Origin: Porphyra umbilicalis
Lineage: Eukaryota; Rhodophyta; Bangiophyceae; Bangiales; Bangiaceae
Direction: 5' to 3'
NCBI GenBank assembly: GCA_002049455.2
Contig: KV919022.1
Coordinates: 50,079-114,078 of the forward strand
Length of the DNA stretch: 64,000 nt
The translations under genes and the position numbers were made by a program. Below, in pieces: positions 43,608 to 64,000 of the stretch (positions within the stretch are counted from its first letter, which is position 1; each line of letters starts with the position of its first letter). The notes under the pieces are model-generated. The model searched no databases, was not told the DNA's origin, and saw nothing but the letters and a program-made list of their open reading frames with translations.

Positions 43608-43622
43608 GCTCCAGTTGTATGA

Positions 43623-44584
43623 TGCTTTGCTGAGAAATGGAGCATGCACGTTTGCGCAAACAAACATGCACACCCGGCCACTGTGAGCATTGACCCGTGC
43701 TGCAGGGAGACCCGTGATATCTCCGGGTGATGTGTGTCATGTCAAGCATCCCGACCAGGTTCGCCGGGCCCTTGGGCCGACAAAGGCTGACAGCAGCTGG
43801 AGAACCGCACTCTGAGTGACCCGGTGACAAGTACCTGCTGACACCCGCGGCGGCCTTTGTGAAACGATGCCAGAACATGCACGCTGACAGCCTAATCAGG
43901 ACAAGACTTCTTAAGCCACCGGCCACTGCGGTGCCGTCAGAAGCTTCCCCCCTAACCGGCCCCTCATGTTTGCTCGCAGAGGCTGAATCGGCCTCCGAAC
44001 ATGCAGGACGTTTGAGGAGTTCTTGCAATTCTTTTCTGTCCGTTCGGGCCGTTCATTGGCCCTCCGAACACGTGAGCCCTGTGACCAGTAGATCGCCTTT
44101 GTTCATTGACATCGAGACGTGTCACTGACAATCTGTTGACCAATCACCGTCGATGAAGGGTACAGCAGTGACTGGATCCAGCCCACCTGCGTTTCTTCTG
44201 GGGCACCAGATGGCACAGGTGCGCAGTCCCTGTTCTGTCAACCGTGGAGATCCGGCTCAAATACTGTGAAACTAGGCCGCCTGACGCGGCCAATGGGCAG
44301 GTGGTCACTTTCATTGAACCTGCATTTTGAGCGGGTTTGGGCAGTGTTCTTGACATTGAATCATGAGAAGTCGTTGGCTGCATGATGAGGCCCTAGTCCC
44401 ACGTCATACCATGTGCCAGTGGGTGGCTGTGGCTTTCGCCGGTGCTGCCAGGTGCAAATGCACTTGGGACGCTATCGGTCCCCTGAAGCCAGGTGAGAGA
44501 CGATCTGACGAACATCCTGACATCGGTCCACCTCGGCGAACGTTTGCACTCGCAAACGTGCATGCTCCATTTCTCAGCAAAGCA
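43623..44584. mobile_element. 962-bp non-autonomous element with perfect 34-bp TIRs
   Basis: 43623-43656 (beginning TGCTTTGCTGAGAAATGG) and 44551-44584 are exact reverse complements over 34 bp. The interior has no long open frame and no transposase. It starts 15 bp after MITE copy 3. I could not see a target-site duplication; the outer sequences (TATGA left, CCATC right) do not match. Confidence 0.75.
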
Positions 44585-44914
44585 CCATCGTCGGGAAAGT
44601 GGGGCGCATACTAGACGTGTACTAACACGCGTACTAGGCTAAATTTCATGTACTACAGGCCCGATTGCCTTACTGGCATCAATTCGGAGCGGCGGCCGTG
44701 GGGGGGGGGCCGAACGCACGGCATCTGGGGGGGGGGGGGTCCAGAACGTGGGCTACAAGTCCCACGTGCTGGCGCCGTGGGGTGTACCAGGTAAATCGGG
44801 CCAGATTCGTGGGCTTGTAGCCCCTGCTGAAGCAGGCTACAAGTGACACGCACACAAGGAAATCGGGTGTGTCTTCGTCGTTTCGCAGCGCGCCAGGACC
44901 AGTCAGGACGGTTT
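44585..44914. other. Short spacer with two hairpins
   Basis: No gene. Two hairpins lie at 44741-44772 (arms CCAGAACGTGGG and CCCACGTGCTGG, each side off by one base) and 44814-44843 (arms CTTGTAGCC...TGCT and AGCAGGCTACAAG). Both contain CTACAAG. G-rich runs occur at 44700-44740. Confidence 0.5.
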
Positions 44915-45169
44915 GTCACACATCAATCTGTGTGCGGTGTCCCTGGACTGCCAGAAGCCACCAGCGTTCAGCACGTAGAAGCAACAGGTCTGGGGGTCAC
45001 ACATCAATCTGTGTGCGGCGTCCCTGGACTGCCAGAAGCCACCAGCGTTCAGCACGTAGAAGCAAAAGGTCTGGGGGTCACACATCAATCTGTGTGAGGC
45101 GTCCCTGGAATGCCAGAAGCTACCAGCGTTCAGCACGTAGAAGCAGCAGCTCTGAGGGTCACACATCAC
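44915..45169. repeat. 81-bp tandem repeat, three units and a start of a fourth
   Basis: Units begin at 44915, 44996 and 45077, with the first bases of a fourth at 45158. Each starts GTCACACATCAATCTGTGTG and contains CCAGCGTTCAGCACGTAGAAGC; they differ at a few positions. 81 is a multiple of three, so frames stay open through it on both strands, but I see no protein. It lies about 185 bp downstream of the stop of transposase copy B and may be a subterminal repeat of that element. Confidence 0.85.
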
Positions 45170-45353
45170 TTTCTTTACTGCGACCGGCCGGGTCCCAAAC
45201 GCTTCATTGCTTCTGACACGTCCCTCAACCGAGACCTTCGTGACACGCATTGATTCAAGCTCCGAGAGGCACAACTGCCTTGCTCGTCTACCCCTCCCGC
45301 CCCACCAACACCCCAGCCCACCCCCCCGCCCTCCTCCCCCCCCCCTCCCCCCA

Positions 45354-48300
45354 TCATTCGTCATCCGTCTCCTCTCCCGCATTGCTGACCGCGAATGCGT
45401 TCACAAAAAAGCGGGCGGCGCGCAGCTCTGCAGCGGTGGATGGTACCTCGTTAGGCATGACAAGCAAGCCATGCCGCTCACAAAGGACCTCCCAGTCATG
45501 CCCCACTGCAACCCAGCCCACAATGTCGCTGACCTCCACGACGTCCAGACGAGCCGCATTCCCACCGGACGGTACCGCCCATGGCAGTCGCTGACACCCG
45601 TAGTCCGTCAGTACACAACCCTCACGAGGTGCCGCTTCCTCTGCCCGCCGAACCACCAGCCGCTTCCGTCTCCCAGTTCGGGACTGTACAACGAGCGCAG
45701 CTTGACCGTAGAATTTGTTGCCACCGGGCCCGCGGTACTGCAGCCAGTCATACCAAGGAGCGCCATGAAAGCTCGCTGCCGCACGAATGGTGTTGGCCAC
45801 CCGGCCACGCCCAGGGGCGGATGACTTGCCGTAGTATACGGAGTCGCAATAGAACAAGGGAGCACTGTCCTCCACCTCCAACATAGTACAGAGCCCAGGC
45901 AATTTGCGCTTGCGCGCAAGCTGCGCCGCAGTCCAGCGGTGGGAGAAGCGAAGAGGTCTGCTGCGGCGTCCGGCGTGTACTGGCGTTGCAGCTGAGCCCG
46001 CTGCGATTGGGCGCTCCTCTTCCTCCAGCAATAAGGCAGCCACCTGCTGGTTCAACAGCAGCTGCTCAACGAACTGGTCACGCCTCTTGTTGGTGGCCTT
46101 GTACGCCGCTTTCACTGCCTTGTGCAGCGTCTCATTGATGCCCGTGTTCCCGTCGAACAAATTTCCCCGCAGACGGAACTCGTCAAGTAGATGCACGGAA
46201 AGGCGGTGCAACTTCGTAGTATGCGACGGACCGAGCAACGGCTGGTAGTAATCGATGACCCATTTCTGTGCCCGTTCAGCAACTGCCGCCGCTTGTGCGC
46301 CAGTGATCCCACCGCCAGTACACCTCTCAGCAAAGATCTCGTTCGTCACTGCCACCAGCTCACACACGGCCCTCGTCAGAAGCCGGTGGTCCGTCTCGTT
46401 CTGCGCGGAGCCAATGGTGGCGACGACGGCAAAAGGGCAAGAACGGCAGAGCCCGTCGGTGCTTGCTACCCGTCATCGTTGCCTGCTTCGTAGCCTTGGG
46501 TACAAAATACTTACGCACGAGGGATATATAATCGAAGCCAGTACATGAAAGAGATAGTACACAACGCTAGCTTAAAAGGAATCGGGTACAAGTGTCAATC
46601 TCCGTGTCAGTATAGGTCGATGAGCTACTCAACCGCGCGTCGCTGTCACCGATCGTTCCCTACTCGTCACCCAATACAAAACACCTTCGTTCTCTATACT
46701 CTGGCGTACCCGGGGTGTATGTGTGGCACTCGTGCACGGCGTGAGGCATGCTTGAACCGCATGTTGATGGCGCGCTCGGAATTGGTGACTGTGCCGAGCC
46801 GTACATGGCCACCCGGCATAGCAATCTTCCGGAGGTACTCGGGTACCGCGTTTGCGACCATGCCGTTGATACCAACGTCCATGACCTGATCACACGCAGA
46901 CCACAGCACAGTACCAACACGAACGGGAATGCGCATGCAACGTGTCGTTAGTGAGCTTACAACCGGTACCAACACAAGCGGCCTGGACTCCAGAGGACGC
47001 AGTCGTAGTACGGAGTGTTGAGCTCTGCTCGGGAATTCCATGGGAGCTATACTTACACGCGGGCTCTTGGTGACTCAAGCTCGTGTACTTGTTGGCATTC
47101 CATTGTTGTATGACTTGTACTTGTTTGTACTTGATTTGTGTATCTCTTGGTGAGCCCCCCCTTTCTTGTGGTGAGCTCGGGGAGATTGTGCGTGGCGTGG
47201 TGACTGGATTGTGCGGCGGTGGGCGGCTTAGCACAGGGGAGGCGCATGCTCCGCTTTGGGAGGTGCGCCGCAGGCCCTGCACGCGCGGAGAGTGGAACTG
47301 CCTGGGGAAGCACTGAGAGGGGGGTCTTCCCTGCGACTGGCAGAGGGGTCGCCTGGGGTATATCAGGCGGTCCTAGTGGGCCCAAGACCGCCATCCAAGT
47401 AAACCAACGCATCCACCTATCTACCTCCCGCTTCACAGGTTATGGGCCCAGCTGTCGCTGGTGGTCATCGTCGTCTTCCCTGCGGTCGCTGGTCGGACGA
47501 CGTTGCTCGGGTTGCGGTGTGTTCCGGCGTCGCGCGGGCCGATACCGCCGTCGACGTCGTCAGTGCGGTGCTTGGTTGCGCCGCTGTCGTCAACATGTCG
47601 GACTACGGCCGCCTTAGCGGCCCACGGTTCGCGCAGCTGGACGACGATTACAAGGTGTGGGCGGCGTACCAGCGTGCGCAGCTCAAGAAAGAGAAGCTGT
47701 GGACGGCCGTCGTGACGGACCGCCCTGCTTCTGGTTCGGACGACAAGAAGTCCGACCCGGTGGTCAAAGCGTGGGACGCCATGAACGAGGCGGCGCTGGC
47801 GACCATCCAGATGTCGGTCAAGCCCGTGCATCTTAACACGGTCACGTCGGTTGACACGGCCAAGGAGGCGTGGGACGCGCTCAAGGTCATGTTCGAGGCA
47901 CGTGACAATGCGCAGCTGCTGCGGCTCATGGACGAGCTGAGCAGCCTGAAGAAGGGCGACGACGAAAACATCATCAAATTTGCGTCGCGCGCCAAGATGA
48001 TCCGGGACGAGCTTGCCATGCTCGGAAACCCGGTGGACGACAACACGCTCGCACTGCGTGTCTTGTCGGGGCTTCCGTCAGAGTACGGGATGCTCAGGAC
48101 GGTCTTGGAGAACAAGGACACCAAGCTCGTCATGTCGGACGTGACGGCTAAGCTGCTGCAAGTGGAGCAGCGGAGCATTACCGTCGCCGCGTCGAAGCCT
48201 TCTGGCAGTGTCAAGTCACAAGCCTTTGCGGCAGCGGCGCACAAGAAGTCGTTTGACAAGAAGTCGATCGTGTGCTTCTACTGCAACAAGAAAGGGCACA

Positions 48301-51300
48301 TGCAGCGCGACTGCTACAAGAAGAAGGCGGATGAGGCCAAGGGCAAGGGCAAGCCCGGCGGTGGTGGTCGTGAAGGCGGCCAAGGCGGCGGGCCCCACGC
48401 GGGTGCCGCTCTGGCCTACACTGCTTCCACCGGCAATGCCGGGAGCAGCAAGGCTCACGGGAGCACACGCGGGTTGTCAACCTGGGTGCTCGACTCTGGC
48501 GCAACCAACCACATGGCCGCCGGGGATAAGGGCTTCACCGTCCGGACGGCGGGAAGCGGGGCCGAGGTCACCTTGGCCAACGGCGATAAGGTGCCCATCA
48601 AGGGGCACGGCCACGTCTCCATGGACGTTGGCAAAGGAAACACCAAGACGCGCATGGTGCTCGGGGAGGCTATGCTCGTTCCGGACCTGACTAGCAACCT
48701 GCTGTCGGTTCGAGCAGTCGACCGCAATCGAGGTGCGGTGGTGTTTGTCGACAACGCCTGCTACATTCTTAGCGACGGGGATGCTGTACGCTTGAGCGGG
48801 GTGCTCGACAAGGCGTCGGTGGTCGGCAAGGTGAACGACCTGGAGCAGTATGTGCTCAAGGTGACGCCGGTCCAGGCGTCGGCTAACGCGGCATCCACGC
48901 GCATAGCCGGGGAGGCGGAGCTGTGGCACCGTCGGTTCAACCACTTGGGGTTAGAGAACCTCAAGCGGGCGGCCACAATGGTCGACGGCATGCCGTCGTC
49001 AGTGGCAGACGCCAAGCGCGTCATTGGCACTGTGTGTGTGCCGTGTGTGGACGGCAAGATGGTTCAGGCGCCGAGCCCCCGCTCATCTACAGCGACGACC
49101 AAGTGCGAGCTGGTGCACACCGACATTGGTGGCCCACTCACGGAGTCGCTGGGTGGTTCCATCTACTTGATGACGGCGCTGGAGGACTCCACGGGGTTCA
49201 TCACGGCAACGCCTATCAAGACGAAAGGGATGGCACCGCAGGTTCTCAAGACGCGTATCAAGCAGCTTGAGACGCTGACGGGAGTCAAGGTCAAGCGCGT
49301 CCGTCATGACGGTGCCAAGGAGTACGTCACCAACGACCTCAAGGCATGGTACGAGGACAAGGGCATCACGTCGGAGATGACAGCGCCGTACAAGTCACAG
49401 CAGAACGGCAAAGCGGAGCGGGTTAACCGCACGCTGATGGAGCGCGTGCGTGCTGCTCTGCTCGATGCCGGAGCGGAGGAAGACCTGTGGGCTGAGGCGT
49501 TGGCCTCTGTCGTCCATGTGCTCAACCGGTCCCCCAAGGCGGGGCTGGACGTAACACCGCTGGAGGCCCTAACAGGTCGACGCCCCAACGTCGCGGGATT
49601 CCGCGTTTGGGGGAGCCGGGCGTGGGCGCTCAAACCCAAGAAGCAGCAACGCAAGCTGGAGCCAAGGACCGACGTAGGCCGCTTTGTCGGCTACACGGTC
49701 GGTGGCAAGGCCTACCGCATCCTCGAGGATGAGACGAACCAACTCTTCGAGCGTCGAGACGTGCTGATGGAGGAGAACCCGGCTAAGGTCAAGGCGTCGG
49801 CAGTCGGGTCAAGCGCTGGTCCCCGACTGACGGCGGGAAATGACGGCGGCAAGGATGACGCCACGGAAGGGGCAATGGACATGCTCGACGCTGAACGCGG
49901 GCGAGAGGACGAGTACGCCCCCGACGACACCTCTGACAGCGACGAAGAAGTCGGTCCTCCCTCCCTTGCTGAAGATAGCGAGGAAGACGTCGAGGATTGC
50001 TCCGATGGCTCGACACCGGCGGGCGGTCAAGGACCTGCTACCTGTGACAGCGCCGCACCTGGACCTCGTCGCTCAAAGCGAAAGCCAGCTCCCAAGGTAA
50101 CATGGTGGGAGAAGGAGCCCAAGGCGTACTTGGCAAGCGGTTCAAAGAGTGCCGCTGAGTCGAGCTGCGCCCTACACAAGCCCCCGGCAAACGAGAAAGA
50201 GGCACGTGCTCGTTCTGATTGGCCGCGTTGGAAGCAGGCCATCAAGGAGGAGGTGGCAGCGCACAAGAAGCTTGGCACCTGGTCCAAGATTAAGGTGAAC
50301 AACAAGAAGCACAAGGCCATCAAGACGCGTTTTGTGTTCGACATCAAACACGACGCGGAGGGCAAGATGACGCGCTACAAGGCTCGCCTCGTGGCCCAAG
50401 GTTTCAACCAAGTGCCGGGGCGGGACTTTGACGAGACGTGGGCGCCGGTGCCCAGCGCGGCTACCACACGGGCCCTCTTTGCTGTGGCTGCAGCCTCGGG
50501 CTGGGAGGTTCACCATGTCGACGTCAAGACAGCCTTCCTCAACGCCAAGATGGACAAGGAGATGTACATCAAACTCCCCGACGGTATCGAGCCGGAGGGC
50601 GTGGAGGAGATGTGTCGGCTTAACCTTGCGCTCTACGGGACAAAGCAGGCTGGGCGGCTGTGGGGCATCAAGCTCGACAAGGAGCTCAAGGAGATCAGTG
50701 CAGTGCGGTCCAAGGTGGACCCGTGCCTCTACGAGTGGTGCCACCCTGTGCACGGGCGCGTCTTCATTCTCGTGTACGTCGACGACCTTATCGTGGCGGG
50801 CGAGAAGCTGGCTGCGGTTGCTGCCGTCAAGCGCTTCGTGTCGGCGAAGTTTGAAGTACGCGACATGGGGGAGGTCAACGACTTTATTGGCATGAAGGTC
50901 ATGCGTGACCGTGCGGCGAAGACGCTCACTCTGAGCAACCCGGGGCACACGGCGACGCTGCTGGAGGCGTTTGGGATGGAGACCTCCACCCCGAACAAGG
51001 CGCCAATGGCGTCAGGGGTCAAGCTGACTAAGACGGGCGAGGACCTGCTGCCGGAGCGTAACCGGTACGCCGAGTTGGTCGGCTCCCTCCTGTACCTGTC
51101 CACCACGACAAGGCCGGACATCGCCTTTGCCGTGGGGGTGCTGTCGCGGTTCATGTCTTGCCCTGAGCAGGACCACATGCGCGCGGCAAAGGGGGTATTG
51201 CGCTACCTGCGCGGGACAACCCGCCTTGGGGTGGTTTACGGCGGCAGCGAGCCGCTGCAGGGGTTTGTCGACGCCGACTGGGCGGGCGACGTTGACGGCC

Positions 51301-54300
51301 GTCGGTCCACGACAGGCTTCGTCTTCACCCTCAATGGCGGGCCTATCGCGTGGGCAAGCAAGCGCCAGTCGACGGTGGCAACCTCGACGGCCGAAGCGGA
51401 GTACGTGGCCGCCGCGATGGCCACCAAGGAGGCGCTGTGGCTACGCAAGCTGCTGTCGGCTCTGGGCGTCGATGGCGGGGCCGTGCCGATGGGGGAAGAC
51501 AACCAGGCTTGCCTCGCCTTGGTCAACAACCCCGAAGCCACCGGGCGTACCAAGCACGTGGATGTCGCGTACCACATGGTCCATGACTACGTGGCGCGCG
51601 GGGAGGTGACGTTCTACTTCCTCCCTAGCGTGGACATGCCGGCAGACGGGCTGACAAAGCCGCTGCCGGCCCCGGCGTTCGTCTTGTTTCGGCTCGTCAT
51701 TGGCGTTGGCGCCGATCTTGGCAACGCGGGGCTGGGCGCTACGCCCGCCCCACGTCCTGCTTCCACATGCTGAGCCCCTCCGTGGTCGGCGGAGGTCTTT
51801 GGCGGAGCGACCATGGTGACAGGCCGCGTGCCCTTTGCGTTTGGCATCGGATTTGCGGCGGTTTGGGCCGGTTGTGGTGCTCGGACGGCCGGCTGGGGTA
51901 TGTCATGTTGCTGCCCGAGTCGGCGGTGGTCGACTGAGCCCCTTTTGTGTTTTGCACTAACGGCGATTTTTTCTAGTGGACGGTATCGTTACCGTCCCGA
52001 AGAAAAATCGCGCGGATTGCTTGGGGCGGTTTGGGTCGGTTGTGGTGGCCGGACGGTCGGCTGGGGTATGTCATGTTGCTGTGCGAGTCGGCGGTGGTCG
52101 ACTGAGCCCCTTTTGTGTTTTGCACTAACGGCGATTTTTTCTTGTGGACGGTAACGATACCGTCCCGAAGAAAAATCGCGCAGAGTGCTTGGGACGGTAT
52201 CGATACCGTCCGTTCCGGTGGGCTTACATTAACTCCAATGGAATTGGGGGAGTGTTGAGCTCTGCTCGGGAATTCCATGGGAGCTATACTTACACGCGGG
52301 CTCTTGGTGACTCAAGCTCGTGTACTTGTTGGCATTCCATTGTTGTATGACTTGTACTTGTTTGTACTTGATTTGTGTATCTCTTGGTGAGCCCCCCCTT
52401 TCTTGTGGTGAGCTCGGGGAGATTGTGCGTGGCGTGGTGACTGGATTGTGCGGCGGTGGGCGGCTTAGCACAGGGGAGGCGCGTGCTCCGCTTTGGGAGG
52501 TGCGCCGCAGGTCCTGCACGCGCGGAGAGTGGAACTGCCTGGGGAAGCACTGAGAGGGGGGTCTTCCCTGCGACTGGCAGAGGGGTCGCCTGGGGTATAT
52601 CAGGCGGTCCTAGTGGGCCCAAGACCGCCATCCAAGTAAACCAACGCATCCACCTATCTACCTCCCGCTTCACACGGAGCATCCACAAACAGGACGATAC
52701 CGAAAAGACACACATACAGCATGTGAAACATACGTGGAGGCGGTCAAACCCTGGCAAACGATACAGCATACGCTGGCCGTTGCCAAGCCCCGCCCATGGA
52801 GCCAGAGCAGGAACCATGCTGTTCAAACTGTGCGCCATCTCCGCCTCAGTACGCATCGCGCCAGCACCGCGGAAGTCACCCATCAGCACATTGCGCAGTT
52901 GCACCCGCACAGTCTCGTGCACATCCCTTGGGGGAGCATTCGTGCCCGCCTCCGTACAGGAGCTGTCCCGCCCAACAGTGCATGCCGTGCAAGGGAATAG
53001 GCAGCCGGACCCCTTCAGACACATGACTGCGCGCTCCTCGGGTTGGTCACATACGTACAGAAGAGCACGGGGAGAGACACGCACGCAGCCACCACCTGGA
53101 AGATTGAGCCACGTCCCGTCATGACTTGCCAGCAGACTTGTCCGGAATACAACATGTAGGATGCGCTGCAGCAACTCGGCACGTACTTCCTGGCCCTTCA
53201 TGGTCTCGAGAAACTTGGCCTCCACCTGCGGGATGTACGCCAGGGTGACCCACCGCACCTCATCTGTGTTGATGTTGATGACCCGCATCCGCAAAGGGTA
53301 GGCCGACACAGCGCCGCTGCTGCTCAGTACAGTCGAGTCGGAGTACATATAGAACCCCAGCACACGCGTCCCTGGATGTAAGGTACCGTCAACGTGCTCC
53401 TTTTGCCGCTTGTACATTTCTCCGTCCCATGCGTTGCACAGTACGGTGTCCGGTGCGGTCATACTGGCGCCTGTACTGGCGTCAATCGACCCAGCATCAT
53501 GTTCAGTAGACGGAGATGCCCCCCAGTACAGGTCCTCGGGTTGGGCACGCATCACCTCGTCTTGAGCGGCTTGTAGTGCGTCTCTGAAAACGACGGTGTA
53601 CTGGCGCCCGTCAATCTTCATGATGACCTTCCTCCAATTGAGCGGCGCAATGAGGGTCCGCTTGTAGCGGCGCACGGCGGCAATGAAGCGCCAGACCGTC
53701 TTGAAAGCATCCGTGAAAGGTCTTTTCGTGGCAGCATCCGTGGCCGCTTCGACCTTCAGCGTGTAGTTGTACAGGGCCTTGAGCTCGCGCTGCGTCATCA
53801 CCCCCCCGCTGCCAACCGTACAGGCGTGGACGAATACGTGCTGGAGACCATCTCGCTGCCACGGCTCAACGCGACCCCCCAGCATAGGAAAAGCCGTCGT
53901 AGACTGGTCTGCATCAGCAAAGCGCTCGTAGCGCGAAAAAACGTCGTCACACAAGCGACGGTCAGGGTCACCGTCTTCTTCATCCGAGCCACTATCAGAT
54001 GCTGACAATCGCCCACCACCTCGCGGCGAAGTGTCATCACCCGTGGCGCCCCACGCTGGTGTACGAGAACGCTCGCCAGACGCATCCAGAGTACATCCGT
54101 CCTCCTGTGCAGTACAGCTTTCTCCAACAGTACAGTTCCACGAGCGCCGATGCCGCCGCCGCCGCTGACCTCCATGCCGACCATCAGCTTGGCGTGCAAG
54201 CCTTGCCTGGGCAGATGGTTGTCCTCGACGGGCACGACCACGACGGTGCTCACACGTGAGCGTCCTGGCTAGCTCGAGAAAGACATCCGATGGGAGTGCT

Positions 54301-54560
54301 GCAACTGTCCCAACTGCCCCGACATGTCCGCCAGTTGGGTGAGACGTGGCCGCGTCTTGATCGCCCAGCATGGGATCGTCGTCGTCCTGGCCAGGTAGTA
54401 AAGGCCTGTCATCGTCGGTCTCGATACATCTTGTATTGACAGGTACAGCCGTAGGATTGACGGGGGGCACGTCGTGGCAGTGCGACGCGTTGAAGTGCCG
54501 CGACTCGCCAACAGAAGAGCGCAGCATGCGGCCGCAACTCGCAACCCGACAGGGAAACAT
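45354..54560 (-). CDS. Zinc-finger DNA transposase, copy B (Copia in intron 1)
   Basis: Predicted exons on the minus strand are 54560-52734, 46885-46710 and 46461-45354, 1037 codons in all with frame kept. Intron 1 has donor GTATGT and acceptor TGATCAG and holds the Copia element; without it and one target-site copy the intron would be about 184 bp. Intron 2 (248 bp) has donor GTACGC; its acceptor is the least certain, chosen because it is the only AG in the right phase after an in-frame TGA at 46475. The start is the ATG at 54560 before a C2H2 finger (C4-X4-C9-X12-H22-X4-H27). The core repeats copy A: CDQPEERAVMCLKG, then FPCTAC; FDRLHV at the exon 1 end joined to MDVGINGM; then GPSHTTKLHRL and NETLHKAVKAAY. 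It is diverged from copy A throughout, so the two are separate families or old copies. The contiguous frame reading past 52734 enters the LTR and is not real protein. Confidence 0.7.
47016..47437 (+). repeat. 5' LTR of Copia element
   Basis: 422 bp, TG...CA ends. Contains GGGTATATCAGG at about 47356 that could serve as a TATA element. Differs from the 3' LTR at 47246 (A) and 47275 (C). Confidence 0.95.
47438..47452 (+). promoter_or_regulatory. Copia primer-binding site matching the initiator-tRNA anticodon arm
   Basis: GGTTATGGGCCCAGC follows the 5' LTR directly. Its complement GCTGGGCCCATAACC is the anticodon stem-loop of eukaryotic initiator tRNA-Met, including the CAU anticodon. Drosophila copia is known to prime from the cut 5' half of this tRNA rather than the 3' end; the sequence here predicts the same mechanism. 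Confidence 0.85.
47595..51773 (+). CDS. Copia gag-pol polyprotein
   Basis: 1392 codons from the ATG at 47595; the frame is open from an ATG at 47442, but that one lies in the primer-binding site. Residue numbers here count from 47442. Order of parts: Gag-like N-terminal region; zinc knuckle CFYCNKKGHMQRDC (C278, C281, H286, C291); protease WVLDSGATNHM (D351); the pre-integrase motif ELWHRRFNHLG; integrase with D561, D623 and E659 (D-X61-D-X35-E); reverse transcriptase with YVDD at 1112-1115; and RNase H with DADWAGD (D1277) and STAEAEYVA. Protease, integrase, reverse transcriptase, RNase H is the Ty1/Copia order. The polyprotein would be cut by its own protease; reverse transcription runs in particles in the cytoplasm and integration in the nucleus. 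No stop or frameshift separates gag from pol, so the gag excess usual in such elements must come from splicing, cleavage or another route. The frame looks fully intact. Confidence 0.97.
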   Translation: MSDYGRLSGPRFAQLDDDYKVWAAYQRAQLKKEKLWTAVVTDRPASGSDDKKSDPVVKAWDAMNEAALATIQMSVKPVHLNTVTSVDTAKEAWDALKVMFEARDNAQLLRLMDELSSLKKGDDENIIKFASRAKMIRDELAMLGNPVDDNTLALRVLSGLPSEYGMLRTVLENKDTKLVMSDVTAKLLQVEQRSITVAASKPSGSVKSQAFAAAAHKKSFDKKSIVCFYCNKKGHMQRDCYKKKADEAKGKGKPGGGGREGGQGGGPHAGAALAYTASTGNAGSSKAHGSTRGLSTWVLDSGATNHMAAGDKGFTVRTAGSGAEVTLANGDKVPIKGHGHVSMDVGKGNTKTRMVLGEAMLVPDLTSNLLSVRAVDRNRGAVVFVDNACYILSDGDAVRLSGVLDKASVVGKVNDLEQYVLKVTPVQASANAASTRIAGEAELWHRRFNHLGLENLKRAATMVDGMPSSVADAKRVIGTVCVPCVDGKMVQAPSPRSSTATTKCELVHTDIGGPLTESLGGSIYLMTALEDSTGFITATPIKTKGMAPQVLKTRIKQLETLTGVKVKRVRHDGAKEYVTNDLKAWYEDKGITSEMTAPYKSQQNGKAERVNRTLMERVRAALLDAGAEEDLWAEALASVVHVLNRSPKAGLDVTPLEALTGRRPNVAGFRVWGSRAWALKPKKQQRKLEPRTDVGRFVGYTVGGKAYRILEDETNQLFERRDVLMEENPAKVKASAVGSSAGPRLTAGNDGGKDDATEGAMDMLDAERGREDEYAPDDTSDSDEEVGPPSLAEDSEEDVEDCSDGSTPAGGQGPATCDSAAPGPRRSKRKPAPKVTWWEKEPKAYLASGSKSAAESSCALHKPPANEKEARARSDWPRWKQAIKEEVAAHKKLGTWSKIKVNNKKHKAIKTRFVFDIKHDAEGKMTRYKARLVAQGFNQVPGRDFDETWAPVPSAATTRALFAVAAASGWEVHHVDVKTAFLNAKMDKEMYIKLPDGIEPEGVEEMCRLNLALYGTKQAGRLWGIKLDKELKEISAVRSKVDPCLYEWCHPVHGRVFILVYVDDLIVAGEKLAAVAAVKRFVSAKFEVRDMGEVNDFIGMKVMRDRAAKTLTLSNPGHTATLLEAFGMETSTPNKAPMASGVKLTKTGEDLLPERNRYAELVGSLLYLSTTTRPDIAFAVGVLSRFMSCPEQDHMRAAKGVLRYLRGTTRLGVVYGGSEPLQGFVDADWAGDVDGRRSTTGFVFTLNGGPIAWASKRQSTVATSTAEAEYVAAAMATKEALWLRKLLSALGVDGGAVPMGEDNQACLALVNNPEATGRTKHVDVAYHMVHDYVARGEVTFYFLPSVDMPADGLTKPLPAPAFVLFRLVIGVGADLGNAGLGATPAPRPASTC
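51858..52193 (+). repeat. 168-bp direct duplication in the Copia 3' non-coding region
   Basis: Two tandem copies, 51858-52025 and 52026-52193, differing at about a dozen sites. Each contains a hairpin: GCGATTTTTT on one side and AAAAATCGC on the other enclose a near-palindrome (51978-51997 and 52146-52165). Confidence 0.85.
52192..52211. repeat. Perfect 20-bp palindrome
   Basis: GGACGGTATCGATACCGTCC is its own reverse complement. It is a third version of the near-palindromes at 51978 and 52146, 41 bp before the 3' LTR. Confidence 0.9.
52241..52252 (+). promoter_or_regulatory. Copia polypurine tract
   Basis: GAATTGGGGGAG abuts the 3' LTR. Such tracts prime plus-strand DNA synthesis in LTR retrotransposons. 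Confidence 0.8.
52253..52674 (+). repeat. 3' LTR of Copia element
   Basis: 422 bp, same ends as the 5' LTR; carries G at 52483 and T at 52512 where the 5' LTR has A and C. Confidence 0.95.
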
Positions 54561-54661
54561 AGCCACAGTCGGGCGCGATTGGTCGTCACATCAAAGGTAA
54601 GGACAGAGGCCAAAGCCAACGGACGGTGAAACGGTGCCGTGCGTCTAGCGGCGCGTCCAAC

Positions 54662-54766
54662 GGTGCGTGCTCGCGACCGGTGTGTACGCACTACAGGTGT
54701 GTACTCGCGACAGGTGCGTACTCACGACAGCTGTGTACTCACGACAGCTGGTGTGTACTCACGACA
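54662..54766. repeat. Six 17-bp repeats upstream of transposase copy B
   Basis: Units like GGTGTGTACTCACGACA start at 54662, 54679, 54696, 54713, 54730 and 54750 (three extra bases before the last). They lie about 100-200 bp upstream of the ATG at 54560 on the minus strand. They could be subterminal transposase-binding repeats or a promoter array. Confidence 0.75.
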
Positions 54767-55461
54767 GTATTGATCCGTCCAATTCATTGGTCCACCACAG
54801 AACAACCAATACACGAAGTAGTACCACAGAAGAATAAGGTAGCCCCTCTCTTTAGTTATATAAATGCAATCAGCACAGTGCTGACAACAATGTGTACCGC
54901 ACCCGGCTGTACTCCTACCCAGGCTCAGTGCTGTCGAGCGCGTCCGGGGAGCCGTCTTTAGCTGACCCAGTCCAGGTCAGTTGTCCGTAGCACACCTGTC
55001 CAGCACTAATCTGCCAACACAAGATCGAACAGCATTGGCCACAGCATGTCGTGCTGACACAGGCTCGAGTGCTGATTGGTACAGCGACGACAGTCAATGA
55101 GCTCGTCCGTACCCGGGAGGTGTACCCACGCGGGCCATCGAACCAACACAGTCACAGCCGTCACCCCGACGACCCCCTCCCTGTGTGCTGTTGCAGGCTG
55201 CTGCACGGCCTCGACGGAGCGGGCCCGCAGCGGGCCCGCAACGACGACTCGACTCAACGTTTCGCTCTTGAGAGCAAGGGACGGGCGTCACCGTCATGGC
55301 CCGTGGACTGATGACTCGTGGGCTGCTCCCGTTCTCCCGCATCGTTCGCGGCTGTTCCCTCTCTCCCCTCCCCTTCCTGGCCTCACCCCTTCTGCCGACA
55401 CCCCCTTCCCCCTCCAGCCCATCCACCCAATCCCCCTTCACGCTCCCCGCCGCCAGGAGGT
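54767..55461. other. Spacer upstream of the 55462 gene
   Basis: No gene seen. TATATAAA at 54857-54864 is a fair TATA box on the + strand but lies 600 bp before the next ATG. The last 150 bp are strongly pyrimidine-rich (C/T), as in a leader or the end of an intron. Confidence 0.4.
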
Positions 55462-56895
55462 ATGACTCTGTTGGACGACGTGAGTCGCCTTCTTGAGGCC
55501 GCTAGCCACGCACTGGCCGCCGCGAATGCGGGACACATTGACGGTGTGACCGCCGGCCCGGCAGCAATGCCCCCTGTCAGTGGTCCGGCAGCCACCGGCT
55601 ACGTTGCCGGCTCCGGTGACAGTGAGGGTCTCCACGGCGGCCACGTCGGTTGTGTCGGCCGTGTTGACGCGGGCCATGTCGACCCTGCTGGCAGGCTGGC
55701 CCCAGAACCGACCGCCGCATCGACCTCCGTGCTCGTCAACGGCCTCGTTCTTCCACCCACCCCGCCTTTGTTGCCGCCGTTTCCTACCCTGGGGACACCG
55801 CTTTCCGTGCCGGACATCACGCCAGTGCCGCTGACGGACGGGGCTCGGGATCCCGCCGTGTCGCCCGACACGATCGCGGCAGCCGCCGCGAGGCTAGTTG
55901 CGGCCGTCAACATGATCGCCACCGCGAGGGCGAGCACCAACACGGTCGCCGCCGCTTCCTATATTGGCGGCGCCAGCACGCACGTGGCAGCCCGCCTGGT
56001 GGACCCCGCGGCCCCCGCGGTCGCCGCCGACAGTACGGTCTCCCCCGCTGCCAACACGGACGCCTCTGCCAGTACGGTCGCCCCCGCTGCCCCCAAGGGC
56101 GCCCCCGCGAGTACGGTCGCCCCCGCCAGTACGGTCGCCCCCGCCAGTACGGTCGCCGCCGCCAACAAGGGCACCCCCGCTGTCAACACGGTCGCTGCCA
56201 CCAGCACGGGCGCTTTCATCGCCACCTCGGACGGCCCCGCCCCCCCCGGAGCCACCACTGCCAACACGCTCGCCGCTGCCAGTACGGCTGCCCCAGCCGC
56301 CAACACGGTGGTCGCCGTCAGTACGGTCGCCCCGGCTACCAACGCGGTCGGCGCTGCCAGTACGGACGCCTCTGCCAGTACGGACGCCGCTGCCAGTACG
56401 GTCGCCGCCATCAACACGGTGACCGCCGTCAGCACGGGCGCCTCCGCCAGGACGATGATCACCGCCGAGACTGTGTGCATCGCCGCCAACACGGTGGCCG
56501 CCGCCAGTGCGGCAGGCGCGGTCGACAGGCCGGCGTCGGCGGCCAGTACGGGTGCCGGAGTGGCCGCCGCCGCCAATCCAAGCGCTGGTGCCGTCATCGA
56601 CATCGGCGACGTGCGCGAAGCAGACGACGCAAACGACGCGGGTGACGCGATGGATGTGGATGCGCCCTTGGCAGCGGATGAGGCCAACCCAGTCGGTCCG
56701 GCGACGTCGTCTCCTCGCTCTAACGTCACCAGCACGCGTGATTCAGGTCGCATGGGGACGTTGGCGGCTGGCTCTGGTAGTAGGAGTGCAAGTGAGAAGC
56801 GGACAACAACTCGCAACGCCAACGCCAACGCCTCTCACCAACTGTACGTTTGTGCCGCTTACAGTCGTTCCTCAAAAAACCCATCACTCCACTGA
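55462..56895 (+). CDS. Low-complexity Ala/Thr/Ser/Val-rich protein
   Basis: 477 codons from the ATG at 55462; the frame is open to 55318 without a better start. I do not recognise it. The N-terminus (MTLLDDVSRLLEAASHALAA) could be an amphipathic helix; there is no clear signal peptide or membrane segment. Residues about 185-370 are built of short variable repeats such as ASTVAPA, AANTVAA and ASTDASA, encoded by an irregular minisatellite at 56020-56500. A short acidic stretch follows (DVREADDANDAGDAMDVD), then a basic Ser/Thr/Arg tail. It may be a structural protein, part of a transposon, or a frame held open by the repeat. The ending near ASHQLYVCAAYS overlaps a possible splice donor (GTACGT), so the true C-terminus may differ. 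Confidence 0.4.
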   Translation: MTLLDDVSRLLEAASHALAAANAGHIDGVTAGPAAMPPVSGPAATGYVAGSGDSEGLHGGHVGCVGRVDAGHVDPAGRLAPEPTAASTSVLVNGLVLPPTPPLLPPFPTLGTPLSVPDITPVPLTDGARDPAVSPDTIAAAAARLVAAVNMIATARASTNTVAAASYIGGASTHVAARLVDPAAPAVAADSTVSPAANTDASASTVAPAAPKGAPASTVAPASTVAPASTVAAANKGTPAVNTVAATSTGAFIATSDGPAPPGATTANTLAAASTAAPAANTVVAVSTVAPATNAVGAASTDASASTDAAASTVAAINTVTAVSTGASARTMITAETVCIAANTVAAASAAGAVDRPASAASTGAGVAAAANPSAGAVIDIGDVREADDANDAGDAMDVDAPLAADEANPVGPATSSPRSNVTSTRDSGRMGTLAAGSGSRSASEKRTTTRNANANASHQLYVCAAYSRSSKNPSLH

Positions 56896-58429
56896 GACCA
56901 ACAGTGACCCGCACAAGTGACATGTCGCAAAATTCTATTCGAATGCTGCTCTGCGCGGATTTGTGACCTGAAAATACGCCGGCCCGTTCGGGGTCAGCAC
57001 ACGCGAGCGCCCATTCTACGCCAGCATCAGCGGTCGCGAGAAGCGACGGAAAATATAATTTCAAGTTTACAGATCATGACGGACGTGAATGCGCGACAAC
57101 GCCTAGTTTCCACGAGTGTGGCATACATTCTGAGGTCGTGGCAAGAGAGCCGCCTCCTTTCTGACACGTGCATTGCACAATGCGTGCAGGCTGAGAATTC
57201 TTGCATTGATTGTTGCCGCCCTCATGGCCTCCGATTGGCTCACTCGTGTCACTGGAAACTCTCCGAAGTCTCCTGGGAGCTTCAACCAATGGGCGCCTTC
57301 GGTGTAGCCCCTGCTGAGAAAGAGCCTTCAACTTGTTGCCCCACTTCCTGCACTCTGTGAGACAGCACAGAGCAGGGTCATGCACTGCGCCACACATCTT
57401 CTGCTGAAACAGCCGCCCCAGACTTCAAAACCCGTGATGCGAGCCGCAGCTCTTCAGAGTACTGACCGAAGCGGGTGCGGCACGCGAGCCGGAAGAACCA
57501 CCAATTTGACTGACCCATGACTCGTCGCGTGCCAGAGACAAGCAGCAACGCTTCCAGGAAGATCCAGCGATGCATCGGCGCTCAACCCAGATGAAGAACC
57601 GGCCCTTCCAGTGAGCCGCAAGTCCGCACAATCAAATGCCACAGGATGATTGGCCTCAATTTGCTCAGCGTGTTCTGCTGTCACGTTCAGGGTCGATTGC
57701 CATCGAATTTGTGAATCAGTCGTCGACGAGGTTTTCGACGAGACTGGCAGCCCAGATCCACGGATGAATCCGATCGTCGTCATCTGCGTTCCGGCTGGAC
57801 GCGCCGGCAGTCGCCGCGGCTGTCGCACACCGCGTTGTCGCCAAAATGTGACAGATTGTGTGCTGTTGACGTCTGTTGCGGTCTTTTGGGTGATCATTCG
57901 GCGAAGCGCAGCCTCTCGGAGGGGTGCGGCTGGCTAAATGGCTGCTATGAGAGCGATGACACGCCTACCCCCCCCCCCCCTCGTCACAAGCGCAATATGG
58001 CCACCGTGCCGGCTGAAACGGCATCCAAGAGGGGTCGGGACTGCATATCCTCGCCCCCCCACCTCAGTGGCGTTCTGAACAAAGGCGTGCGCTCGATGCG
58101 CGCTCCCGCGATCCATGTCTGCACGTCGACGGCCTGCTCAAACTGAATTTTGCGCCATGCCGCCTCTCGTGGCGCATTATGCGGGGTGGGGGGTGGCGGT
58201 TCGCTGAGCCCCCCGCGCCCCCCCCCCTCTCACAATGACCCGGAAGCAGTACGATTCAGCTGCGATAGGTGTCCCAGACGGTCGAAATTCAAAATTTGTG
58301 CGTCAGTGACGTCCCAGTTCCGTCCGGTAGGCACCGACGTCGTCGCGCCGTCCTCTTCCCCTGCCGCTCCCAGCGTATTCACGCCAGCGTCGTGGTTCCA
58401 CACCTGAAACTGCCGTACCAACGCGCCCG
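56896..58429. other. Intergenic stretch without a supported gene
   Basis: About 1.5 kb of mixed composition. Open frames of up to 188 codons on either strand resemble nothing known. A run of C lies near 57969-57980. Confidence 0.5.
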
Positions 58430-58885
58430 ATGGCGACTGACGATGCGGTGACACCGGTTCGCGCGAGCCCCGTCGGGACAACCGATGTGGCGGCTTCTGG
58501 GTGCTCCGCACCGCTGTCCTCAATTGGGTCTGAGGGGGCTCCGCAGCTGGGCGGGGGTGCCCCGGCTGACGATGGATCGGGTGGGGAGGAGGAGGAGGCC
58601 CGCTCGGGTCAGGCGTGCTCGATTTGCGGGTACCGCAAGCGTTTTCGCACGATAAGCACAACGCCGGCACGTGCGGCGCTCGCAGCCGCGAATGCGTGTC
58701 TAGCCCGACCGTCCCCGTCGAGTTTCGGACCGAGCATTGTCCATGCTCTAATGCTACTAAGAAAACTTGCCCGAAGACTGCAGTGTGCGTTTCCATTTCT
58801 TATTTCTTTTGCGGACGGGATGTCTATTTCTCGTGTCTTCTGGAGCTTATGTTCTCTCGCTTCGTCTTTCTGTCACATTTACTGA
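58430..58885 (+). CDS. Possible first exon with a split cysteine/histidine cluster
   Basis: Open from the ATG at 58430. The protein is acidic and low-complexity, then reads SGQACSICGYRKRF. In the next frame the DNA goes on as FSHDKHNAGTCGARSREC and then HCPCSNATKKTC, so that a Cys-X2-Cys followed by His and Cys residues is spread over two frames. This suggests a zinc-binding module broken by a one- or two-base change near 58645-58655 (a TTTT run). Downstream, 58790-58990 is T-rich and intron-like, and the frame at 58943 opens with CTLCFEERH, so this may be the 5' part of the 58994 gene. Confidence 0.3.
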   Translation: MATDDAVTPVRASPVGTTDVAASGCSAPLSSIGSEGAPQLGGGAPADDGSGGEEEEARSGQACSICGYRKRFRTISTTPARAALAAANACLARPSPSSFGPSIVHALMLLRKLARRLQCAFPFLISFADGMSISRVFWSLCSLASSFCHIY

Positions 58886-58993
58886 CTCTCGTGGCACTGT
58901 CATTGTCATTCGCTGATCATTGCTATTGGACATCCGCTACTGGTGCTGCACAGCTGTACACTTTGCTTTGAGGAGAGACATCTTCCCCATACC

Positions 58994-60172
58994 ATGTCTT
59001 TGACGAAGGCCTTCACCCTAGGACGGACTCAAACAGGTCGGCTGTCTATCATCAAAAAAAAGGAGACGCGCTTCGAGCCCCGCTTCATGGTGTGTAGCAG
59101 GACGCAGCCCGTGCATCTCGAGCGCGAGGCAGAGTCGGCACGCCGTGCAGCAGCCCTGAAAGCAGACAGGGGCGAGGCCGTCGCCTTGCGAAAGAAGGCG
59201 GCGCTGCGAACAGACGTTACAAGCCTACCCCCGGCGGCCCGAGCAGCCTCCATGACCCGTGTGGCGGACGCGCTGACAGGGCCGCACGCACGAGCGGCTC
59301 TCGTGACCAACCCTCGTGGAGCTGCCTTCCATAAGGCCTACGCGGGTGGGATTGCGGGGGGCATGAATGAGAACACCGCCTTGCTGTTCGCTGGTGCAAC
59401 GCAGGCTGGCATCGAGTTTGGAGAGTCGGCTCCTGGAGAGATCCCGAACTCAGATGTGGTTCGACGTGGGCTTCACAAGCGGCTTGAGAAGGCAAGCGCA
59501 ACTAAGCACAAAGGCCACGTGGACCGCATTGGCGCGTTGATGAGCACGCTGAGTGGACCAGTTGGGTCGGTTCGGTGGTATGTTGGCGGTGCCTCCTCCC
59601 CCGTTGCCTTGACTGTATCGTACTCCCTTTCTTCGCGTTTTCCAGCCACGAGAGAGAGCTCCAATCGGGAACTAACTATATCGCCTGTGTGTTTTCCTAT
59701 CTCGGTTTCGTCGTTCTCCTTGCATAGGGACGCGCACAACCTTCGCAATGGGTCTACAGGCCAGCCTGGGGTGGCTGGGGCCAGCACCCCGGCGCCACGA
59801 GTCGGTCGGGTGGGAGAGCACCAATTGACGGTAGCTGAGATGGGCGGGGGTCCTGGATTGGCATCGGCGTCTGATGAAGACGTCGCATTCAACCGCCTTG
59901 GACCAGCGGAGCTTTGCGAGAGCCTCGGCGTCTTCGTTTATGGGCCAAGCCCTTCGGCTGAGCGAAGCGGCTTTGTCGGCAAGGCGCGATCGGGGATAGA
60001 GGCCCAGTTTGTCCGGGGGCACAACGTGTCGGGGTCATCTTTGACCGTAACGGCTGTGGCGGCGCTCATTTTGAGTAAGTGGGGAGACGCCGGAGAGGAC
60101 CACCCGTCGATTGGGGACCTCCCTGCTGGCTTGGTTGACACAGTCACTCGTTGGGTGTCTTCCCGGCGTTGA
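58994..60172 (+). CDS. Unknown protein, convergent with the Tc1-like transposase
   Basis: 392 codons from the ATG at 58994; the frame is open upstream to 58943 through a non-ATG stretch that may belong to an earlier exon. I do not recognise the family. Residues 1-190 are Arg/Lys/Ala-rich and probably helical (HLEREAESARRAAALKADRG). A possible 150-bp intron, 59578-59727 (donor GTATGT, acceptor TGCATAG), is a multiple of three, so the frame is open with or without it; the region is Ser/Val-rich and unlike the rest, which favours splicing and a 342-residue product. The C-terminal third includes FNRLGPAELCESLGVFVYG. AATAAA follows at 60226. The gene ends 98 bp from the end of the transposase on the other strand; it may be a second gene of one element or a neighbour. 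Confidence 0.45.
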   Translation: MSLTKAFTLGRTQTGRLSIIKKKETRFEPRFMVCSRTQPVHLEREAESARRAAALKADRGEAVALRKKAALRTDVTSLPPAARAASMTRVADALTGPHARAALVTNPRGAAFHKAYAGGIAGGMNENTALLFAGATQAGIEFGESAPGEIPNSDVVRRGLHKRLEKASATKHKGHVDRIGALMSTLSGPVGSVRWYVGGASSPVALTVSYSLSSRFPATRESSNRELTISPVCFPISVSSFSLHRDAHNLRNGSTGQPGVAGASTPAPRVGRVGEHQLTVAEMGGGPGLASASDEDVAFNRLGPAELCESLGVFVYGPSPSAERSGFVGKARSGIEAQFVRGHNVSGSSLTVTAVAALILSKWGDAGEDHPSIGDLPAGLVDTVTRWVSSRR

Positions 60173-60225
60173 GCGTTTGTCGGCGGCGCCGTGTCCTTGT
60201 CTTTGTATCAATATGCACCTTCGAC

Positions 60226-60231
60226 AATAAA
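60226..60231 (+). terminator. Polyadenylation signal
   Basis: AATAAA 54 bp after the stop at 60172, in the right place for cleavage of the + strand transcript before the convergent gene. Confidence 0.5.
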
Positions 60232-60270
60232 CGGGTCTTTGCGTATTTCACTCACCCACGCTACAAAGCT

Positions 60271-61359
60271 CTACTCTCGCTCCATTGGCAACGGCTCGAA
60301 GGCCTCTCTCCACGGCCCGTCCGGGCCAGCCAGCTCCGGCATATTTCGGACGGCTTCCATAAGACAATGCTCAAAGTGCGTGCCTATGTTTTCTGCCGTC
60401 AAGGCAGCAATCGCCAGAGCGTGGCGTAGGGCGTCTGGCTCCCCCGGGAAGGCGTGATGCATCGTCTTTAACAAGCTCGAAAGCTCACTGAACACCTCCT
60501 CGATTGGTTGGAAATCCGGGCTGTAGGGAGGCAGCCGCAGAGGGAAGACACCCGCCGCGGCAATCCATGCGTCCGCTTCAGCCGAGTGGATGGGCGCATT
60601 GTCATAGAGTAGGACGCACTTTTCGGGCTGAAGCGCCCAAGGCAACCCCGGAACGAACTCGTTCATCGTCGGCAGCAGCCCCCCGAGGAAGATCAGCCAG
60701 TCGTCCGAGTTCTGCGCCGGGGGTGTCGGTGTCGTCACACAGTGGATGACGCCAGTCTCGTAGGATACTGCCATCATTGTTGAAGTCCGAAGCATGTTCT
60801 TTTCAGCCCGAGAGAGGCAATCATAGCGCATTCCGCGCAACCACCTGCCGCGCCGTCTCCGCATATCTGCACCATCTTTGTGCGTTTCGTCAACGGAGAC
60901 GATGCACCGCAGAGGAATAGCTGTCAAGACGCGCGCAAAAGCCACGCGGCGTTCTTGGTCTCGCTCCCTGCACATTCGGTACAACCGGCGGTAGGTAAAA
61001 CCGGTAGCGCGTAGGACGCGGTCGAGCGTGCCGATAGACGTCTTGTAGGTGTCGCGGTAGCCAGGGAGGGTGGACAAAAAAGCAAAGACATCCTTTATTT
61101 CACCTATCAGCTGCTCCGGGTCTGACAGGATAACAGCGTTCACGGCTCGAAGGAAATGGGAGTCGTAGATGACGTTGTCCGCATGCCGGTTTCGCAAAAC
61201 TGGGTCAGGCCCCCACTCGCCCGACGCGATATAGGCGCTGACCCATCCCTGCACCGTCAATCGATGGCAGGCGAGGCGTCGTGCAGCTTCCTTCTTGGTA
61301 AATCCCTCAAACAGCACCCACGACACCGCCAGCATGCGCGCCGTGTCGTCGAAGACCAT
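60271..61359 (-). CDS. Tc1/IS630-like DDE transposase
   Basis: 362 codons from the ATG at 61359; the frame is open further upstream only through a TTG. Residues about 15-45 form a helix-turn-helix (FTKKEAARRLACHRLTVQGWV) for binding the element ends. The catalytic triad is visible: D157 in VSVDETH, D253 in LLYDNAPIHSA, and E287/E288 in PPYSPDFQPIEE, giving DD33-34E spacing, the signature of IS630/Tc1/mariner enzymes that cut and paste DNA at TA sites. Length is normal for the family and no stop or shift is seen, so it may be active. I did not find terminal inverted repeats. The convergent gene at 58994-60172 stops 98 bp away. The residues before 61359 (ending CSTKTTGN) may be an upstream exon or non-coding. 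Confidence 0.9.
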   Translation of the reverse strand: MVFDDTARMLAVSWVLFEGFTKKEAARRLACHRLTVQGWVSAYIASGEWGPDPVLRNRHADNVIYDSHFLRAVNAVILSDPEQLIGEIKDVFAFLSTLPGYRDTYKTSIGTLDRVLRATGFTYRRLYRMCRERDQERRVAFARVLTAIPLRCIVSVDETHKDGADMRRRRGRWLRGMRYDCLSRAEKNMLRTSTMMAVSYETGVIHCVTTPTPPAQNSDDWLIFLGGLLPTMNEFVPGLPWALQPEKCVLLYDNAPIHSAEADAWIAAAGVFPLRLPPYSPDFQPIEEVFSELSSLLKTMHHAFPGEPDALRHALAIAALTAENIGTHFEHCLMEAVRNMPELAGPDGPWREAFEPLPMERE

Positions 61360-62789
61360 GTTGCCAGTCGTCTTCGTCGAGCACACAGTCAGGGTCCCAC
61401 CTTCTTGGTGCAGCCGGCCAAGTCCCAGCCGTCTCTCAACCAAATACTGGGGTGGTTACGGCCAAGTTTGTGATTGTGGCCCCCCCTAATATGATGCATG
61501 GTGAGTGCGCACAAGTCAGAGGAAGCCCTGGAACTAAAAGTAGAACGTATGGCTTTGGGAGGCTTGGGCGGCCGGAGCGTTCCAGAACGCACTGCGAGCG
61601 TAATGCGCAGCTGCACACATGGATTTGCTGCCAAGGCAGTCCCAGTCGCGGTGCCACGCAGTTCGCCATGGTATGTGAGACTGCGGGCATCAAGTAGGTC
61701 CCAAGAGCGTCTGACCGACACACAGCGCTCCAGACGACAGGATGTCTCTCTGATGCACCTGAGTGGGCCCGCGCATGCGAGGCGGCAACAGCTGCACCGC
61801 CAGCGGCAACTGTTCGAAAGCGCCACGACCTGGTCGCGTGAGCTTTTCCAAAACGGTGGCGACGATGCTTTTGGGAATGCCAAAGCTGAAGCAGGGCTTC
61901 TAATAGGAAACAGCAGGCGGCGGCCGCCTATACCACGAGACCACGCAGGAGCACGCTGTATGGTCAGCGGATCGCGCGTAGCGCTCGGGATGAACGCCTG
62001 TGCAGCTTGTGCTCTCCCTACAGAAGGGTACGGTGCCCAGAAGGACGCGTGCGATGGCGAGACAGCACAGGAGTGAGCGTCACGCGTCTTCGAAGGAGAC
62101 GTGGGCGCCAGGAAGCCCGTGCGCAGGGGTTTCTACGAGCTGGGGAGGCACGTTTGCAAACAAGGGCCGCCACTGCGACAGACATAGCGCGGGGCCAGTT
62201 GCGTCCCTTGCTGAGGAGGAGAGAGTAGTCCTTCAGTGTAAGGAAGCTTCGGTGCTCTTGTGCCGTCCCAGGACCGCACCGGGGTCAACGGTACCAGGTA
62301 GACCGGACAACAGCCACAAGTATGCGGGCCCAAGAGCACGGCCCTGAGCTTCCTGTAGTCTGAGTGAGAGCGCCAGTGCCTGTTGCAGTTGAGCGTTCTC
62401 GTCGACAGGCGGCACAGAGAGCATCGCGGGTCAATCAAAAAAAGAGGCCGACGAATCCGTCGTAGCTTTTCTCCTTCGTGCTGCCGAGCAGCTAAATCCC
62501 GACCAGGGCGTCGTGGAAGTATGAATGACGGTGCTTGTCGAAGCCGCAGTCTCACTGTCTCAATAGTCAAGATCTTTGACTACCACAAGAGATAACCATC
62601 TCGTTTCGGCACGAGAGCTGCACATCGAAGATGCGTGAGGGGGTGACAGGCCGCGCGGAAGGAGGGATACGGGGAAGTGAGAAAGGTGGATGAGGCAGCA
62701 AGACGGCGGCGGGCAGCCGATGTGTGGTGGCAGAGGACGGCTGCGAAAGAGCTGTCGCTTGGGTGCCTTTTGGGTTGCGTGCTGCGGCA
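61360..62789. other. Intergenic stretch without a supported gene
   Basis: No recognisable protein. Open frames of 100-190 codons occur on both strands (for example 61498-62076 on + and 61389-61883 on -) but overlap and look random. The 5' end of the Tc1-like element must lie somewhere here. Confidence 0.45.
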
Positions 62790-63612: not shown

Positions 63613-63904
63613 CATAACCAAATGCTCACGTCTGATGACAGCGGGATCGTCTACGCACAGATGACCACCCTTTTTTGAGTCGTCGCGGCTGGCGCACCGC
63701 ATGCACATCATCTCTCCGGAGCAGTCGCAGCTCGTGAATTGAGGTGCGCTGCCGCCCGAAGCAGGAATCCCTATCGACAACCTCCTTGGGTCCGGCAGGT
63801 ATCGCTTCCAGCACCTGCCGACTAAAAGACAGTCTCCTCCTCAAAGAGTGTGTAGGCGCTGCCGGTGCCACCGACACCCTAGGTCATCCGAGAATGCTCC
63901 GCCA
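63613..63904. other. Spacer
   Basis: Nothing recognised between the 62790-63612 fragments and the open frame at the window end. Confidence 0.4.
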
Positions 63905-64000
63905 ATGGACACGGCGCACGCTGTGGATGGGTCACTCACAGCCGGAGTGGCGGCGACGGCGGCGTCTGCGGCGAGGGTCTCGACTGAAGTGTGCCGTAGG
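63905..64000 (+). CDS. Possible gene start cut by the window end
   Basis: ATG at 63905 opens a frame of 32 codons (MDTAHAVDGSLTAGVAATAA onward) still open at the last base. The Ala/Ser/Thr/Val-rich composition recalls the 55462 protein. Too short to judge. Confidence 0.2.
   Translation, partial: MDTAHAVDGSLTAGVAATAASAARVSTEVCRR

Follow-up and report, generated by a model that had tools for sequence, protein, structure and literature searches.

A Copia retrotransposon in an intron of a Plavaka-type transposase gene of Porphyra umbilicalis

Elements of the locus

The window is a stretch of 64,000 nucleotides of Porphyra umbilicalis DNA (C262:50079-114078) from an assembly of 83.8 Mb in 665 contigs. 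It contains part of a DNA transposon, referred to as B, with a Copia LTR retrotransposon within its transposase gene and a second insert, referred to as D, upstream of that gene.

Features of the window. Coordinates are those of the window; TSD, target-site duplication.
44589-56861, minus strand: host transposon B (Plavaka-type), the part in the window, up to D; right terminus CGTCGGGAAAGTGGGGCGCAT at 44589, AT at 44587-44588
45354-46510, minus strand: transposase exon 3, as modelled from paralogues; altered intron-2 acceptor, T run one base longer here
46710-46885, minus strand: transposase exon 2, 176 nt; tblastn to L010, L023, L027 and L028
46886-52733, minus strand: intron 1 as found, 5848 bp; 184 bp once Copia and one TSD copy are subtracted
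47011-47015, no strand: left TSD copy CGGAG, single in empty sister sites
47016-52674, plus strand: Copia LTR retrotransposon, 5659 bp, antisense to the transposase
47016-47437, plus strand: 5' LTR of Copia
47403-51773, plus strand: Copia gag-pol ORF, stop to stop, 1456 codons
52253-52674, plus strand: 3' LTR of Copia
52675-52679, no strand: right TSD copy CGGAG, single in empty sister sites
52734-54560, minus strand: transposase exon 1, with 609 codons counted from the ATG and the match to Pfam Plavaka
56862-64000, no strand: D, Tc1/mariner-like (DDE_3), inserted in B at the TA at 56860-56861 and extending beyond the window

The sequence-only reading had described a complete Copia element with a perfect 5-bp target duplication, and the LTRs, the TSD on both sides and the domain content all confirm it. 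The two LTRs of 422 bp each end in TG..CA and differ at 2 of 422 positions (47246/52483 and 47275/52512; Jukes-Cantor K 0.0048). A single open ORF encodes gag, zinc knuckle, BBD, pre-integrase, integrase, SH3 and reverse transcriptase (RT) domains, and integrase lies upstream of RT (rve 570-665, RVT_2 960-1202 of the ORF); the LTR ends with the TSD, and this domain order, both place the element in Copia. The stretch 3' of the 5' LTR presumably resembles the anticodon stem of initiator tRNA-Met. Genome searches returned 40 scored matches of 208 candidates for the LTR and 40 of 279 for the RT segment, the window and a second contig, C323, being among them in both; since only these were scored, the family is larger than counted.

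To characterize the host element, the genome was searched with 867 bp of exon 1 (41 matches listed, 40 of 64 candidates scored) and 20 stretches were compared: L009, which lies on C323 and carries Copia, 17 close copies (L010-L026) and two more distant paralogues of about 70% DNA identity (L027 and L028). Exon 1 matched the Plavaka profile PF18759 at E=9.6e-13 with 48.5 bits, above the curated cut-off of 26.3 (profile positions 83-267 of 325), and in the translations the strings CTAC (exon 1) and HTTKLH (exon 3) were noticed by eye. Searching the PDB with the exon 1 sequence gave one weak unrelated match only, Rfam at gathering thresholds gave 0 matches, and RNA folding of exon 2 showed no signal (z-score 0.66).

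The right terminus of B was covered by 14 of the 20 stretches and by L029 (C323). In 11 of these 14, and in L029, the element starts at AT|CGT beside visibly different flanks; the end is altered in L013, L021 and L022. The end pattern had 116 genome matches at ≤3 mismatches, the control 0. Inverted ends of about 21 bp, CGTC..GACG (CGTC..GGCG in one case), with AT on both sides, were found in 7/7 related element pairs, a set to which the window copy does not belong; their AT borders are palindromic, which makes a TSD indistinguishable from a terminal base pair of the repeat. Since ends beginning CGTC match neither PlavakaA nor PlavakaB, B was filed as Plavaka-like without a subgroup. The left end of the window's copy was looked for in L035-L037 and in the repetitive L039-L040 and was not found there; a left end of B was seen on C85 (L043).

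Several smaller features lie in and around B. Three 81-bp tandem copies are present near its right end (44915-45185) and also in several sister copies. An element of about 966 bp (43621-44586), with inverted ends of about 37 bp and AT borders, adjoins the terminus; 40 of 116 candidate relatives in the genome were scored, at 91-97%, and in L021 and L022 such relatives sit at a different AT within the end of B, the one in L022 being inverted. Elsewhere in the window, a long ORF (17688-20933) encodes ankyrin repeats with a 99-bp repeat spacing, a G-rich 15-bp tandem array occupies 33360-33674, and a weak second Plavaka match (4728-5417; E 2.6e-4, 20.7 bits, below the cut-off of 26.3) is perhaps what the earlier reader called transposase copy A.

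D contains a DDE_3 match (E=2.9e-13) in an ORF on the minus strand at 60271-61455, and its inverted ends are CAGTCGTTCC. On contig C4 the two ends (L044/L045) enclose 14,569 bp (C4:635773-650341), and TA is found on both sides of D there and at its junction with B. The TA target and the DDE_3 domain, which we take to be of the Tc1/mariner type, make D Tc1/mariner-like; 14.6 kb is long for such an element. On C4, D joins the left part of B on one side, and the other flank is not B and has no match to the compared sequences. Given these unlike flanks, copies of D may have been mis-joined in the assembly.

Intron 1 and the transposase gene

The unoccupied Copia site is continuous in 16 of the 17 close copies (L010-L024 and L026), L025 being the one without this stretch. 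The five-mer at the empty site is CGGAG in 11 copies and has diverged in five (L017, L021, L023, L024 and L026). With 18 loci given, the donor GT was found in 17/17 and the acceptor AG in 16/16 of the rows obtained. Intron 1 measured 184 bp in nine of ten sister copies, the tenth, L019, giving no length, in agreement with the host intron of about 184 bp that had been predicted for the state before insertion. In the paralogue L028, protein homology to the window transposase (66% at the end of exon 1, 69% in exon 2) ends at FDRLH and restarts at VMD, and the 170 bp separating the two align poorly; L027 supports the limit of exon 1 and, in two frames, that of exon 2. Empty copies devoid of an intron at this position were looked for among the sister copies and paralogues and did not turn up; the intron is kept.

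These data also bear on another reading, in which the gap between exons 1 and 2 is decayed coding sequence and no intron at all. It is highly improbable, since GT and AG occur in every row obtained, neither 184 nor 170 bp is divisible by three, and the homology of L028 stops and resumes at the same residues as the exon limits. Judged by these comparisons, the gap is a genuine intron. Empty sites, splice sites and paralogue limits thus uphold the claim that Copia and both TSD copies lie inside intron 1, antisense to the gene.

Other insertions were seen in copies of B: 397 bp in intron 2 of L019 (L019:3982-4379), 1.4 kb in exon 3 of L018 and about 10 kb within exon 1 on C105. The 397-bp insert is a second intronic insertion in this transposase gene family. 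We make no statistical claim of a preference for introns, as the cases are too few.

The downstream part of the gene was less well preserved in the window. Residues 6-619 of the stop-to-stop frame of exon 1 match paralogue L027 in one frame (54% identity), and the exon 2 donor is conserved in an alignment of five sequences. By comparison with relatives, exon 2 ends at 46710 and exon 3 begins at 46510. The intron-2 acceptor AG occupies one position in 13/13 sister copies giving a row (18 loci given; none from L009, L015 or L023-L025), and the window copy is altered there; a T run in its exon 3 is also longer by one base than in 13/13 sister copies covering the exon. The window copy reaches a stop after 717 or 679 residues, depending on whether the acceptor position of the relatives or the shifted AG is used. 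The proposal that copy B stays in frame over 1037 codons did not hold: this reading was reproduced only with an acceptor at 46462, which lies inside exon 3 of the relatives and has no support from them. The window's own transposase gene is probably broken downstream, from causes that would be unrelated to Copia. The copy on C323 has a normal acceptor and a normal T run, and its transposase frame, joined over the Copia-bearing intron, is open for 1052 residues. Among L010-L022, L012 is the sole copy of 13 without a stop or frame change in the aligned exons; in the remaining 12 the transposase is broken or incomplete, some of the broken frames being perhaps consensus errors. As L012 is both open and empty, such a copy could supply the predicted transposase in trans.

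Taken as a whole, the locus very probably arose when a young, complete Copia element integrated, in antisense, at CGGAG in intron 1 of a Plavaka-type transposon, in one of its many copies. By analogy with its family, the Copia integrase would have made a staggered cut at CGGAG, and gap repair would have produced the 5-bp TSD. B also contains the 14.6-kb Tc1/mariner-like D at a TA upstream of the transposase gene, and either insertion may have been the first. Because Copia disrupts no exon, its effect on the transposase would depend on splicing of a 5.85-kb intron with an antisense Copia inside, which might be tolerated. With its right end present, B could possibly still move with transposase supplied in trans.

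A second place on contig C323

The junction of B with the 5' end of Copia was found at two genomic places, C262 and C323 (≤3 mismatches; control 0), and the exact TSD junction is present on both. D sits at the same TA of B on both contigs, the LTRs of C323 score like the two of the window, and on each contig B ends at its true terminus, with AT, beside a distinct flank. These shared Copia and D sites beside two different flanks, together with the 1052-residue transposase of C323, are what would be expected if the composite of B, Copia and D truly existed at two loci, B having transposed or been duplicated after both insertions and having mobilised its passengers. We consider this rather unlikely, because a copy of a whole element should be evenly similar along its length and the observed identity is not; moreover, a single D/B-left junction was found, and the left ends and full AT pair of both composites were not seen.

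Between C323 and the window, segments of 8501, 602 and 573 bp were compared on the stretch that starts inside Copia and runs to D; none has a substitution, and the two shorter ones have a single 1-bp gap each. On the other side of Copia, 32 of 2425 positions of B differ (1.3%), the last at 46993, 18 bp from the TSD. Identity thus shifts from 98.7% to 100% at the Copia border, and the half of the window's gene with exons 2 and 3 may have been linked to Copia by the assembly.

We lean towards an assembly cause, either one real composite with a chimeric contig or two composites that were collapsed, the B copies being joined to one shared sequence made up of Copia, the part of B to its left and D. 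Polishing with locus-specific reads would then have corrected each right half as far as the edge of Copia. Besides the contrast between no substitutions from Copia to D and 1.3% difference on the other side, this reading is favoured by the junctions, since 25 matches included two B-right/D junctions and one D/B-left junction (on C4), by the unmatched DNA opposite the left part of B on C4, and by the fact that C262 and C323 both end inside D. It fits less well with the exact TSD junction on both contigs and with the true B terminus that each of them reaches beside its own flank.

A sharp change of identity within one element would also be accounted for by gene conversion or break-induced copying between two B copies, which would have moved the tract from Copia to D. 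Over the same 2.4 kb of B, C262 differs from L010-L012 at 26-31 sites and C323 at 17-22, L010-L012 differing mutually at 8-13. Private differences per kb were 9.6 in the right half of the window, 5.9 in that of C323 and 6.7 in the shared left half; by these rates neither right half stands out as the one that originally belonged with the shared left half, as conversion would allow. The edge of the tract would nevertheless have to fall within 18 bp of the Copia border by coincidence, unless both copies already had Copia, and we regard conversion as quite improbable.

The reading of C262 and C323 as alleles of one locus was set aside, since four C323 stretches beyond the terminus (L029, its first 755 bp; L030; L031; L032) align nowhere collinearly with the window and gave only short or low-complexity matches. 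The C323 flank adjoining B is itself composed of repeats, so this non-match is no proof against alleles.

We regard a chimeric or collapsed assembly as more likely than a true duplication, and place gene conversion third. The second contig suggests that B takes Copia with it, and the mosaic identity and the single D/B-left junction allow an assembly cause for it. The fuller scenario, in which a Plavaka-type transposon with an open 1052-residue gene tolerated Copia in intron 1 and afterwards reached a second locus, by moving or by being copied, together with Copia and the 14.6-kb D, is accordingly put forward as doubtful. If the composite truly moved, transposase introns would be safe sites for one mobile element riding in another, C262 and C323 would offer a natural test of such intron-riding, and one element would carry two others from different classes, with one of these passengers lying in an intron of the very gene that mobilises the composite. 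In any case the locus shows transposon nesting cleanly, against many sister sites that are empty, and nested repeats of this sort are where assemblies mislead.

Comparison with known systems

This kind of nesting is already well known, and the intronic antisense position is a detail of it and no new principle. A literature search combining an LTR element in an intron, a transposase and CACTA found no paper, though such a case may be in print. The window Copia resembles Ty1/copia elements in having integrase before RT in one ORF, a 5-bp TSD and TG..CA ends, and shows no notable difference from these LTR retrotransposons.

Plavaka transposons of the CMCT/EnSpm clade are described with TSDs of 2-3 bp and with the termini TGT..ACA (PlavakaA) and CATCA..TGATG (PlavakaB) (PMC12730594), and EnSpm-Plavaka elements are known in the green alga Auxenochlorella (PMC12633428). 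B is like them in its Pfam Plavaka transposase, and the 2-bp AT borders would fall within the 2-3 bp range if they are a TSD, but its ends, CGTC..GACG, match neither of the two terminus types given in that account (PMC12730594).

A close parallel is found in coding MULEs, for which nested insertions were reported in 36% of the maize and 41% of the rice candidates (Zhao and Jiang 2014, PMC3903597). According to the same source, intact transposase seemed to be kept in 2 of 191 maize elements with nested insertions, and 107 rice copies were inferred to derive from a single nested MITE insertion, that is, from amplification with the nested element aboard. As in these MULEs, an LTR element is nested here in a transposase-bearing DNA transposon. 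In contrast to the cases described there, the host is of the Plavaka type and the nested LTR element is intronic, and the rice passenger that was amplified was a 274-bp MITE, whereas the one found here is an LTR element.
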